Shown: one piece after another, positions 10,417 through 28,193 of the stretch
How positions within the stretch are numbered: the stretch's first letter is position 1
How the letters are laid out: every line of letters starts with the position of its first letter
DNA from: Paenibacillus sp. Soil766
GTDB lineage: Bacteria > Bacillota > Bacilli > Paenibacillales > NBRC-103111
Direction of reading: 5' to 3'
Assembly: GCF_001428105.1 (NCBI RefSeq)
Contig: NZ_LMSJ01000023.1
Span: forward strand, 2,147-66,146
DNA length: 64,000 nt
Made by a program: the position numbers and the translations under genes
Notes under the pieces: model-generated
Databases searched by the model: none
Told to the model about the DNA's origin: nothing
The model's input: only the letters and a program-made list of their open reading frames with translations

Positions 10417-10602
10417 AGGTATCCCAGCTTCCTCATATAAAATAAAAAACCTTTTAGCTAAGAGCTAAAAGGAGCGCATGCAGAAAGAATCAATGATCCC
10501 TCTGTCTCGGTCCTATAAGGCTCAGAGCAGAATCCAACATCTTGTTTCGGTTATTCAGATCAGGCAAGATCAAGTGCAGTTCCTATAAGGATACCGCCTT
10601 AT
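10417..10602 (-). promoter_or_regulatory. panB leader with tandem hairpins, probable pan RNA motif
   Basis: The untranslated leader of panBCD contains two copies of CCTTATAGGA (plus-strand TCCTATAAGG at 10511-10520 and 10581-10590, 70 bp apart). Each forms the tip of a hairpin; the first has the stem GCGGT/ACTGC with a bulged A before TCC/GGA. The terminator at 10436-10472 follows. The published pan RNA motif is a stem-loop with bulged adenosines that often occurs in tandem upstream of panB in Firmicutes, and this leader fits that description. The ligand and the alternative pairing are not known to me. Confidence 0.65.
10436..10472 (-). terminator. Attenuator-type terminator upstream of panB
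   Basis: CCTTTTAGCT-CTT-AGCTAAAAGG is followed by TTTTTTATTTTA on the minus strand, all before the panB start. A strong terminator between a promoter and its first gene is the hallmark of leader-controlled expression. Confidence 0.85.
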
Positions 10603-25622: not shown

Positions 25623-26252
25623 TTAAGTTTTCGTTCGTGATAACCAATTCATAATAATAATAGTTGCTATTAAGCCGAGAAGCGATACGACTAATAAGTA
25701 ATGAGGGTACGAATGGATCGGTCCAACATGAAAACGTAAAGGTTCCATGAAGCTTGGATTCAGACTTGCTACCGCATCACCCAACTTGTGTCCATTCAAT
25801 GATTCTGTACCGCTAATCTTTAGCGCTTGTGGCGCTTCGAGATCGTAAAGTGAATTGTCCGCGGAAGCCATCGTTGACTGCGGGGAGCCATCGTATACGA
25901 TCGCAAATAAAAAGCTAAACACAAAAAGTGCTAAACAAAACGCTATAACAGCCGTCAAATTCCGTCTTAATTTATAGGAAATGGAATACATCCGTTCCGA
26001 AACTGGAATTCGCCATGATTCATCCTCATAAATACGGTTCATAACTTTGGTGGAGACAATGGGCTCAAAGTCCGTCAGCTCCTCGTCAGTTGCTGCAGTG
26101 CGGATAAGAATCATGCTCTCTTCCCATATTTGAAATTCCTCTTTACAGGAGTCGCACGTTTCTAAATGTTTATCTACCGCTGCACGACGCAGGTCATCAT
26201 TCGGCAAATCCCAATAGACTCCAAATAATTCCTGGATCTCACTACACTTCAT
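25623..26252 (-). CDS. Zinc-finger anti-sigma factor
   Basis: This 209-residue protein has an N-terminal zf-HC2 anti-sigma domain with VDKHLETCDSCKEEF (HxxxCxxC), two membrane helices (about 95-115 and 182-200) and an extracytoplasmic part between them. It is encoded directly after an ECF sigma factor, so it presumably holds that sigma at the membrane until a signal releases it. GAAGGGATGA overlaps the sigma gene stop region. The signal is unknown. Confidence 0.85.
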   Translation of the reverse strand: MKCSEIQELFGVYWDLPNDDLRRAAVDKHLETCDSCKEEFQIWEESMILIRTAATDEELTDFEPIVSTKVMNRIYEDESWRIPVSERMYSISYKLRRNLTAVIAFCLALFVFSFLFAIVYDGSPQSTMASADNSLYDLEAPQALKISGTESLNGHKLGDAVASLNPSFMEPLRFHVGPIHSYPHYLLVVSLLGLIATIIIMNWLSRTKT

Positions 26253-26258
26253 CGCTTG

Positions 26259-26840
26259 TCATCCCTTCGATTCTTCGAATATCGGTTCACTGAAATAAGG
26301 ATCCAAATGCAATTTGACTGATGCTCTAGCTCTAAATAAGAGCGATTTCACCGAACTGACGGTTTGACCCAAAATGTTGGCAATTTCCTGATAATCCATC
26401 TGATCATATTCACGTAAAATCAAAGCCGATCTTTGCTTTTCTGGCAAGCTATTAATCGCTTCGCGAACCATGGACACCTTTTCGTTCCTCAACATAGCCT
26501 GCTCTGGCATCGCATCAAAAGAAGCATGCGGTGTGAGACCGCTTTGCTCTAGTGACACCTGGACACTTTTATTTTTGCGCAGCTCACTCAATACGGTATT
26601 ACGGGCAATGGTATATAACCACGTAGAGAAAGATGCCTCGATCTCGCGGAAAGAATGCAAACTGCGATACGCTTTATAAAATGTTTCATTACACAAATCT
26701 TCCGCGATAGCTTCCATTTGTGTGCTCTTCAGCATGTGATAAATAAAAGCAAGGATTTTACGCTCGTAACGACGCATAAGCTCGTTATACAGCTGAACAT
26801 TTCCATCCTTGATTTCTCTGATCAATTGGGAATCGGTCAT
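26259..26840 (-). CDS. ECF-type RNA polymerase sigma factor
   Basis: This sigma-70 family protein of about 193 residues has region 2 (LCNETFYKAYRSLHSFR, followed by FSTWLYTIARN) and region 4 (LPEKQRSALILREYDQMDYQEIA). Region 3 is missing, as in the ECF class. AGGAGGG lies about 10 nt before the ATG of MTDSQLIREI, so an upstream 40-codon extension is rejected. It is paired with a membrane anti-sigma factor. I cannot assign it to a B. subtilis sigma such as SigW or SigX. Confidence 0.9.
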   Translation of the reverse strand: MTDSQLIREIKDGNVQLYNELMRRYERKILAFIYHMLKSTQMEAIAEDLCNETFYKAYRSLHSFREIEASFSTWLYTIARNTVLSELRKNKSVQVSLEQSGLTPHASFDAMPEQAMLRNEKVSMVREAINSLPEKQRSALILREYDQMDYQEIANILGQTVSSVKSLLFRARASVKLHLDPYFSEPIFEESKG

Positions 26841-27096
26841 TACGTGGCGACCCTCCTCGCGATTCCGGGTACCACTCCAACTGTTCATACATGTTTTACT
26901 TGTGTTGGAGTGAAAAGTTGCGTTGTATTGTAAAAAAAAAGTGAATGCGTAATTTGGCAAACAATTAGATTTTAATCTATTCTCGATTCAAGACGAGATT
27001 CCTGCTAGATTCGACAAATTGTTGGATAAAGTTCATATTTCTACTACAACTCTACTATCGACATCTCCTGCATTCCTTTTATATGTATGAAAAAGG

Positions 27097-27171
27097 CAAA
27101 AAAAAACCGCCGATTCGGCGGTTGCACTTATAGTGCGATTATCGGATAGGAGTGGAGAGAAACCATACTGT
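27097..27171 (-). ncRNA. Candidate small regulatory RNA, about 75 nt
   Basis: A consensus promoter at 27178-27206 would start a short transcript that ends at a strong intrinsic terminator (AACCGCCG-AAT-CGGCGGTT then nine or more T, 27097-27123). Between them are a small hairpin GCACT-ATA-AGTGC and, near the 5' end, an unstructured C/U-rich stretch, TTTCTCTCCACTCCTATCC. That stretch is complementary to Shine-Dalgarno sequences, a common seed design in Gram-positive small RNAs. No ribosome binding site precedes the 12-codon reading frame it contains. The terminator could merely serve the upstream deacetylase gene; the promoter argues for an independent transcript. Confidence 0.55.
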
Positions 27172-27177
27172 ACTTTT

Positions 27178-27206
27178 ATTATATGTATACGGTTTCATTC
27201 TGTCAA
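27178..27206 (-). promoter_or_regulatory. Consensus SigA promoter of the small RNA candidate
   Basis: TTGACA, exactly 17 bases, TATAAT on the minus strand: both hexamers are perfect. It points into a stretch without a protein gene for more than 300 bases. Confidence 0.75.
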
Positions 27207-27214
27207 CACTTTTT

Positions 27215-27228
27215 TGAAAACGTTTACC
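27215..27228 (-). promoter_or_regulatory. cre-like site (CcpA) upstream of the small RNA promoter
   Basis: GGTAAACGTTTTCA differs from a strong cre (TGTAAACGTTTTCA) at one base. It ends 8 nt upstream of the -35 box, centred about 50 nt before the likely start, a distance seen at CcpA-activated promoters. This is a sequence match only. Confidence 0.45.
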
Positions 27229-27233
27229 AAGCA

Positions 27234-28094
27234 TCATTTTGAACTAGCTAATAGTGATTGTTCTCTCTTGGCCTGCTTGATCAAATTACTAATGGAATGT
27301 GGACGAACAAATGGACTTCCACCGTTGATTCGAGGTATTTGCATTGCATCTGTCCATTCTGAAGCAATTCCGGCTTTCGTTGTAAATGCATACTGAATAC
27401 CTGCTTCATGCAAGTATGAAATCGTCGTATCATCGTAACTACCATACGGGTAAGCATAAGAATCTACATTATTCGAAGCATTCAGTTCCTTGAGTTTATC
27501 CATACATTTACGAGTATCTTGAACAATTCTACTCTTAAACTCAACCTCAGTCTCTAGCTTACCATTCAGAACAACCTTGTTGGATAACAGCGGCTTTCCA
27601 TCTTTCATTGCATGAAGCTCATCGGAATGCCCTTGGAATTCAATATTAGGGTCTTCACTACGCATTTGTTTAATCTCAGCCTTAGATAAAGTCGCTAACT
27701 TAGACTTTTTGGGATCATCCAAATCTTTCGTAATAACGAAATTCACTGCAGGGATATGAAGCTTCTTTAGAATTGGAAATGCATGCGTGTAGAAACTTTC
27801 GTAGCCATCATCAAATGTGATAAGCAATGCATTATCAGGTACTGGTTTTCCTTCGTTTTTGAAGTCTTTAAATTGATCCATCGTAATAAAATGAAAGCCT
27901 TTCCTTTGCAACGATACTAGCTGCCGCTCAAATAGCCTCGGTGTGATTGTGACAGAGTTCTGCTCAAATTCGTCAATGTGATGATAAACGATTACGGCAA
28001 CCTCATTGGAGTAATACACATCTTTCGCACTTGCTAAAATAGGTGAAAAATTAAGAATGACAATCATGACCGCTAGTATGCTTACAATGAACAT
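27234..28094 (-). CDS. Polysaccharide deacetylase (NodB family), secreted or membrane-anchored
   Basis: This protein of about 286 residues has a signal/anchor (FIVSILAVMIVILNFSPILASA) followed by a NodB domain. Catalytic motifs are TFDDGYESF (metal and catalytic Asp), QGHSDELHAM (HxxxxH-like) and AYPYGSYDD. It removes acetyl or similar groups from an extracellular polysaccharide such as peptidoglycan or a capsule. The start is uncertain because no good ribosome binding site stands before the chosen ATG. It follows tyrA at the end of the aromatic cluster, where B. subtilis has aroE (EPSP synthase). Confidence 0.82.
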   Translation of the reverse strand: MFIVSILAVMIVILNFSPILASAKDVYYSNEVAVIVYHHIDEFEQNSVTITPRLFERQLVSLQRKGFHFITMDQFKDFKNEGKPVPDNALLITFDDGYESFYTHAFPILKKLHIPAVNFVITKDLDDPKKSKLATLSKAEIKQMRSEDPNIEFQGHSDELHAMKDGKPLLSNKVVLNGKLETEVEFKSRIVQDTRKCMDKLKELNASNNVDSYAYPYGSYDDTTISYLHEAGIQYAFTTKAGIASEWTDAMQIPRINGGSPFVRPHSISNLIKQAKREQSLLASSK

Positions 28095-28193
28095 TCGGTA
28101 CTTCAGATCAACCGCCCCATAACAATGAATAGTATGTAAATAATTAACAAGTCCCATTATAGCATGAGGCTTTAGACCTGTGAATCCGCTACA

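Follow-up and report, generated by a model that had tools for sequence, protein, structure and literature searches.

Between a gene for a polysaccharide deacetylase and one for an ECF-like sigma factor, the window (the whole stretch of 64,000 nucleotides from Paenibacillus sp. Soil766 that was analysed) holds a short region at 27097..27171 that is very probably an independent small-RNA gene. This gene, its parts and its flanking genes are:

27234..28157, minus strand: polysaccharide deacetylase gene (Pfam PF01522), upstream; its cluster is met at 26 of 186 loci
27229-27214, minus strand: upstream cre-like site TGGTAAACGTTTTCAA, centred at about -51; 12 of 13 positions agree with the published consensus
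27206-27201, minus strand: -35 box TTGACA; TTGAC is constant across 31 sequences from 23 genera
27198-27183, minus strand: spacer cre ATGAAACCGTATACAT, between -35 and -10, centred at about -20
27183-27178, minus strand: -10 box TATAAT, separated from the -35 box by a 17-nt spacer
27097..27171, minus strand: small RNA, its ends predicted from promoter spacing and terminator
27144..27165, minus strand: conserved core TGGTTTCTCTCCACTCCTATCC, with the tandem anti-Shine-Dalgarno motif UCUCC-A-CUCC inside
27124..27136, minus strand: hairpin GCAC..GTGC of the predicted fold, which varies from genus to genus
27105..27123, minus strand: intrinsic terminator stem-loop of 8 pairs, 6 of them G-C, followed by a T run
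26259..26840, minus strand: ECF-like sigma-70 region 2/4 factor (Pfam PF04542, PF08281), downstream

The promoter agrees with the consensus at 12 of 12 positions and is the sole site of that quality within 3.3 kb; promoter-like sites of all strengths in the same 3.3 kb number 8 against 8.9 in shuffles, which is chance. Transcription is predicted to start near 27171 on the minus strand, and the resulting RNA of about 75 nt (77 nt as folded) has a predicted folding energy of -19.1 kcal/mol (z -2.6), with a 5′ part that stays almost open and is followed by two hairpins. A preliminary description of the locus, made from its letters, had named a TTGACA-17-TATAAT promoter ahead of a region of about 75 nt with a strong terminator, all of which are present on the minus strand; the open CU-rich 5′ part and the two hairpins that it expected are borne out by the predicted fold.

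This stretch recurs far above chance. Searches of the order and the class with a query of 136 bp found the gene in 59 of 60 genomes of its own order (own genome included) and in 23 of 24 genera, the one order genome without a match being 1.4 Mb long with a completeness of 91%. There is one exact or near-exact copy of the core in 58 of the 60 order genomes. Two copies of the gene occur in each of four genomes, G091, G193, G296 and G260 (locus pairs L086/L087, L405/L406, L358/L359 and L364/L365), where the second copy has a different promoter. We also observed a c-di-GMP-I riboswitch (RF01051) at 325-408 on the plus strand of L085, about 2.6 kb from a copy of the small-RNA gene. Across the class, 133 of 299 genomes matched the query, 127 of them over the core; the remaining 6 matched outside the core only and were left out of the 127. 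In a sample of 398 genomes of the phylum, exact copies of the core were confined to the 7 genomes of its own order and absent from the nine other genomes of the same class and from the 382 genomes of other classes. Copies with two mismatches were found in 9 of these 382 genomes, which is near chance level by estimate. Scanning named genomes for the exact core gave at least 118 stretches, and the 80 matches listed include Paenibacillus, Cohnella, Brevibacillus, Aneurinibacillus, Ammoniphilus and Thermoactinomyces as well as Melghirimyces, Shouchella, Halalkalibacter, Fictibacillus, Pseudalkalibacillus and Alteribacillus.

Over 186 unique loci, the usual site has an aromatic operon on one side and a sigma/anti-sigma pair or TPR (ypiA)-type genes on the other, with sigma-factor and zf-HC2 partner clusters adjoining the small RNA in 123 and 107 loci, respectively. 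The neighbours in the aromatic operon are presumably trpBA-hisC-tyrA, with or without aroA, names that outside the Pfam-tested genes were assigned by reading the sequences. At 16 loci, neither tyrA, aroA, a sigma factor nor the deacetylase is among the two nearest genes per side; six of these have hisC. In the window, the sigma-70 region 2/4 factor and a zf-HC2 (anti-sigma-like) partner directly downstream of it lie at 25623-26840 on the minus strand.

The small RNA is co-oriented with the deacetylase and the sigma factor between which it lies in the window, and no terminator was detected between the deacetylase and the RNA, an arrangement that would also suit an RNA belonging to one of these two genes, as 5′ leader or attenuator of the sigma factor that follows or as 3′ end of the deacetylase mRNA. 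However, at 21 of the 186 loci, Paenibacillus and the Halalkalibacter/Shouchella group included, the gene is inverted relative to its neighbours tyrA/aroA, and it is therefore neither a leader nor a 3′ UTR. The downstream gene, moreover, changes by group (sigma factor, TPR/ypiA, others), and a fixed same-strand downstream gene, as a cis-acting leader or attenuator would have, was not found across the 186 unique loci. A promoter of its own with at least 9 of 12 positions stands at 224 of 225 loci (165 of 165 and 59 of 60 ahead of the core, against 25 and 9 in letter shuffles), with L387 as the single exception. The leader or 3′-end reading, which we consider very improbable, is thereby already largely refuted. 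Promoter, terminator and inverted loci mark an independent transcription unit and support the stand-alone gene that had first been proposed.

Conservation along the gene was measured on 31 sequences from 23 genera that had been found with the whole query, with the window as reference; loci from the named genomes were left out of the rate for the core because these had been collected by exact core match. The core (27165-27144) differs from the window at 0.7% of positions and the 5′ end of the RNA at 2%, followed by the promoter (12%), the terminator stem (35%), the linker with the hairpin (39%), the upstream cre-like site (42%) and the two flanks (75% and 66%). A seed that is kept while the body of the RNA varies, as seen in these 31 sequences, is expected of a trans-acting, base-pairing small RNA. 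The preliminary description had considered that the CU stretch might prove unconserved beside a varying terminator; the opposite was found, as the CU stretch is kept while the terminator varies. In an alignment of 36 RNAs, hand-chosen from 165 plus a few others, 4 of 4 predicted terminator pairs have pair-keeping changes on both sides, each pair being broken or gapped in 1 to 10 of the 36.

The exact 21-mer that remains of the core without its first T is present in 56 of the 60 order genomes. Rare variants of the core read CCGCTCC, CCACCCC and CTATTCC outside the order and CAACTCC within it (L051), and changes inside TCTCTCCACTCC number five in all, four transitions and one transversion. For tests of seed pairing, useful material is offered by loci where the core or the preceding GG has varied naturally (L390, L394, L396, L403, L402, L385, L393, L397 and L051). 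A stem GUAUGG/CCAUAC that presents the core as a 17-nt loop was seen in Halalkalibacter, Fictibacillus and others and was rejected as a general feature; over 96 distinct pairs of arms, 571 of 2000 permutations of the arms did as well.

In the window, and in the majority of the homologues inspected, an ATG follows the predicted start by 5-6 nt and could open a short leaderless peptide gene (ATGGTTTCTCTCCACTCCTAT..., MVSLHSYP...). It has no ribosome-binding site, and several homologues lack the ATG (CTGG, CAGG, GTGTGA, TGTAG); the core is nearly free of changes, synonymous ones included, and no reading frame is kept beyond it. As the start of the reading frame is not conserved, a peptide is unlikely, to the point of being hardly credible.

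Compared with the cre consensus in the form that we take it to have, WTGNAANCGNWWNCAW, the spacer site ATGAAACCGTATACAT, which overlaps the first T of the -10 box, agrees at 12 of 12 positions. Against the published consensus WTGNNARCGNWWWCAW, as given in a section of PMC3463425, it agrees at 12 of 13 positions by eye, so that each of the two cre sites of the window, 31 bp or about three helical turns apart, is one base off. The upstream site had been described as one base short of the consensus, which is correct (12 of 13 against WTGNNARCGNWWWCAW). It scores 10 or 11 of 12 in its own genus (16 distinct loci), and the spacer cre, not the upstream site, is the one conserved through the order.

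Counts of cre were made on 165 distinct RNAs from the 186 unique loci, identical RNAs and one cut locus being left out, and each RNA was taken to end at its first T run, so that a few come out too short (e.g. L148). With WTGNAANCGNWWNCAW, promoters have a cre of 12/12 at 107 of 165 loci (0.05 in dinucleotide shuffles) and of at least 11/12 at 122 (0.9 in shuffles), counts that come largely from one lineage and one ancestor and do not represent independent loci. The centre of the cre falls within three adjacent spacer positions in 115 of these 122 promoters. In the 3′ half, 19 of 165 loci reach at least 11/12 with the same pattern (0.7 in shuffled sequences), and with WTGNNARCGNWWWCAW a full 13/13 is reached in 90 of 165 promoters and 11 of 165 3′ halves (shuffles 0.05 and 0). 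Upstream of the -35 box, 60 of 165 loci have a cre of at least 10/12, where letter shuffles give a mean of 2.4.

In other lineages, the placement of the site shifts. In family f32 (Brevibacillus and kin), a cre lies inside the terminator hairpin, with 12/12 in 12 of 15 loci and 11/12 in one more; it is absent from both second gene copies in this family. Halalkalibacter and some, not all, Pseudalkalibacillus also have a cre in the terminator, and families f33, f34 and f37 have one over the -35 box. Altogether, 6 of 25 families outside the order have a cre of at least 11/12 (shuffles 0.64, maximum 3) and 11 of 25 one of at least 10/12 (shuffles 5.0, maximum 9). CcpA control is not universal, because a cre of at least 10/12 is lacking at 20 of 165 loci and one of at least 11/12 in 19 of the 25 outside families; judged by these sites, it is a widespread added layer. 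Loss of ccpA was considered as the cause of missing cre sites and ruled out: of 44 genomes tested, 37 have a ccpA that scores above the NCBIfam cut-off, and many of these lack a cre. The window's own genome is among the 37 (481.9 bits, cut-off 442.35).

A cre at a workable position in a genome that encodes CcpA is, at the level of sequence, what a member of the CcpA regulon presents, and CcpA control of the small RNA is well supported in this sense. The carbon control that had been suggested thus gains strong cre support, with the correction that the upstream site is a second site, and that the better conserved spacer cre had been missed. For B. subtilis, a section of PMC3463425 describes repression by a cre that overlaps the promoter and possible activation by an upstream cre; since the spacer site is the conserved one, repression is likelier than activation. 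Separately, a palindrome that resembles a cre and is centred on CC or GG, TTGTAAGCCCTTACA, was observed in the terminator loops of 7 of 224 RNAs, one organism being represented twice (L071, L078, L102, L353, L368, L370 and L408); it is perhaps the operator of a variant CcpA or of another LacI-family protein.

The spacer between -35 and -10 holds a further element in families f29 and f42, namely GGAGTGGAGAG, the reverse complement of the core, which is exact in G097 and G112 and near-exact in G126 and G141 (loci L071, L348-L350, L353, L407 and L408); of 61 class genomes scanned with a pattern for this element, 3 gave a match. The hairpin that this complement is predicted to make with the core (-17.6 to -24.5 kcal/mol) needs a transcript that enters from upstream, and the complement would silence such read-through RNA. 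Its presence in the promoter is also what could be expected if the core acted as DNA, as an operator just past the transcription start. Against this stand the varying distance from promoter to core, the framing of the core by promoter and terminator at nearly all loci, and the absence of the complement arm elsewhere, also in the f29 genome G077 (L368), and we judge a DNA operator to be improbable.

The reading that we favour as the probable one is a CcpA-repressed, trans-acting small RNA of about 75 nt with its own promoter and terminator, in which a tandem anti-Shine-Dalgarno seed would block translation. Its own vegetative promoter and terminator would yield the RNA. In the presence of preferred sugars, CcpA with HPr-Ser-P would occupy the cre between -35 and -10 and shut the promoter, and with CcpA inactive the RNA would be made. 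The two CUCC blocks of the open 5′ part GGUUUCUCUCCACUCCUAUCC would then base-pair to GGAG-type ribosome-binding sites on a number of mRNAs, UCUCUCCACUCC being the stretch that in the seed model is meant to join the mRNAs at these sites, and translation of those mRNAs would be blocked.

Partners of such a seed were looked for in several ways. Over 60 genomes, GGAGTGGAGA stands ahead of an ATG 214 times, where two controls with rearranged letters and an intact GGAG give 153 and 197 (wherever two ATGs were possible, both were counted); core complements ahead of start codons are thus not clearly enriched over the controls. The reversed pattern (49 sites in the 60 genomes) is no fair control, because it has no ribosome-binding site. 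Judged by their sequences, the genes met in this search would include those for a GH76-like and a GH43-like enzyme, a response-regulator-like protein and a sugar ABC ATPase; a Pfam search with one 60-residue piece from these genes gave no match, and they are not evidence because the controls, too, show recurring sites. Complements to 18 of the 21 core bases outside the small-RNA gene amounted to 6 stray ones in 60 genomes, with no recurring long complement, and the neighbouring genes gave 11 matches, inside the shuffled range of 1-32. Pairing with 23S rRNA, suspected from three matching blocks, was rejected, as it gave no convincing signal over shuffled cores: the best duplex (L321) reaches -25.3 kcal/mol, which 8 of 60 shuffled cores equal, and that of the window's own genome (L323) -23.5 kcal/mol, which 23 of 60 equal. 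No selection for an exposed core was detected: its exposure is 0.82, and shuffling it within the same RNAs gives 0.81. Neither a protein partner nor short seed pairing spread over many mRNAs would be picked up by these tests. Of the carbon-controlled, translation-blocking small RNA in the preliminary description, the stand-alone gene and the probable control by CcpA have held, and the independent gene, the extreme conservation of its core and the cre sites can be read from the sequences themselves; with complements not clearly enriched (214 against 153 and 197), blocking stays at the level of what we infer, together with repression by CcpA in the cell, pairing by the seed, the direction of the effect and the targets.

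Twenty-one nearly invariant bases exceed what a usual seed needs, and this counts against the seed model. Almost no substitutions between genera, complementary ribosome-binding sites that are not clearly enriched and the lack of a recurring long complement in 60 genomes would all agree with a core that binds a protein or serves as a decoy, the RNA capturing a conserved RNA-binding or ribosome-associated protein and pairing with mRNA not being its job. Yet the core itself, plain in sequence, rich in C and U and mostly single-stranded, has anti-Shine-Dalgarno blocks in tandem, a make-up that is also met in known seeds of Gram-positive small RNAs. In addition, four of the five changes in TCTCTCCACTCC are transitions, able to keep G-U or G-C pairing, although five are too few to decide. 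A protein-binding core seems to us rather unlikely, and we retain the CcpA-repressed seed RNA as the preferred reading.

Searches of Rfam 15 (4227 families) gave no match at gathering score at the small RNA in the window or at 20 homologous loci; at a relaxed threshold, 26800-27300 gave seven matches, all far below gathering scores, the best with 29.5 of 51.4 bits (E 0.014). The sole gathering-score match in the window is a 'pan' motif (RF01749), a cis-regulatory RNA, at 10498-10600 on the minus strand (51.2 bits). RoxS/RsaE and FsrA have a C-rich seed that is thought to pair with ribosome-binding sites, and the new RNA has such a seed too; the preliminary description had brought them up for this seed, and their Rfam models do not match the new RNA at gathering score. 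Its probable control also differs, being by CcpA rather than by ResDE/Rex or Fur, the regulators that part of PMC8216469 names for RoxS/RsaE and FsrA. RsaE is described, in a portion of PMC4409812, as the only trans-acting small RNA besides 6S that is known from both S. aureus and B. subtilis.

The functionally nearest relative is RsaI (RsaOG) of S. aureus, according to the same part of PMC8216469 a stand-alone CcpA-regulated small RNA with a C-rich region that binds mRNAs and with two G-rich regions, conserved in Staphylococcus and not in Bacilli. A C-rich region and, judged by its cre sites, probable CcpA regulation are shared by the new RNA, which differs from RsaI in having neither a G-rich sponge region nor an Rfam match. 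RosA (S345) of B. subtilis is another small RNA that CcpA represses, by way of a promoter site (PMC8216469, same part), as is proposed for the new RNA; RosA is, however, a G-rich sponge without C-rich regions, and the new RNA is of the reverse kind. G-rich sponge regions, the trait of RsaI and RosA, were not found in the sequence of the new RNA. 6S RNA is long and structured and binds RNA polymerase. That of lactic acid bacteria is, like the new RNA, the product of a noncoding gene with a cre, which in some lineages lies at the promoter or inside the gene (a section of PMC8414754); it differs in its length and structure, and the new RNA gave no 6S match.

For Paenibacillus itself, part of PMC5670726 reports 27 small RNAs, three of them annotated, from RNA-seq of P. 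riograndensis SBR5, and the new RNA may be among the unannotated ones. Among the openly accessible papers listed on small RNAs of Paenibacillus and Brevibacillus, Paenibacillus RNA-seq, CsfG and CcpA-linked small RNAs, none showed a description of it, and a search with the letters of the core gave, among the matches listed, only papers on other subjects by title. The gene thus appears to be uncatalogued, and we regard it as a new small-RNA family of a known kind, with an unusual depth of conservation and an unusual placement of its operators.

A more far-reaching possibility, which we offer tentatively, is that the ancient invariant core is a shared translation switch of Bacilli, the wiring of which has been rebuilt repeatedly: with a cre in the spacer (Paenibacillales), over the -35 box, upstream, or in the terminator hairpin (Brevibacillus and kin, Halalkalibacter, others), where, the gene being only about 100 nt long, it may act as a roadblock, and with a promoter complement in two families that would silence only read-through copies. 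With a core that hardly changes between Paenibacillus, Thermoactinomyces, Brevibacillus and Halalkalibacter, this would be another very deep small RNA, and cre sites that shift around one constant RNA are a readable case of regulatory rewiring. The stable locus and the single core copy in 58 of 60 order genomes make deletion and testing easy. Through this gene, regulation by RNA would be tied to carbon control in soil and industrial bacteria that form a large group and for which little work on small RNAs was found in the literature searched.
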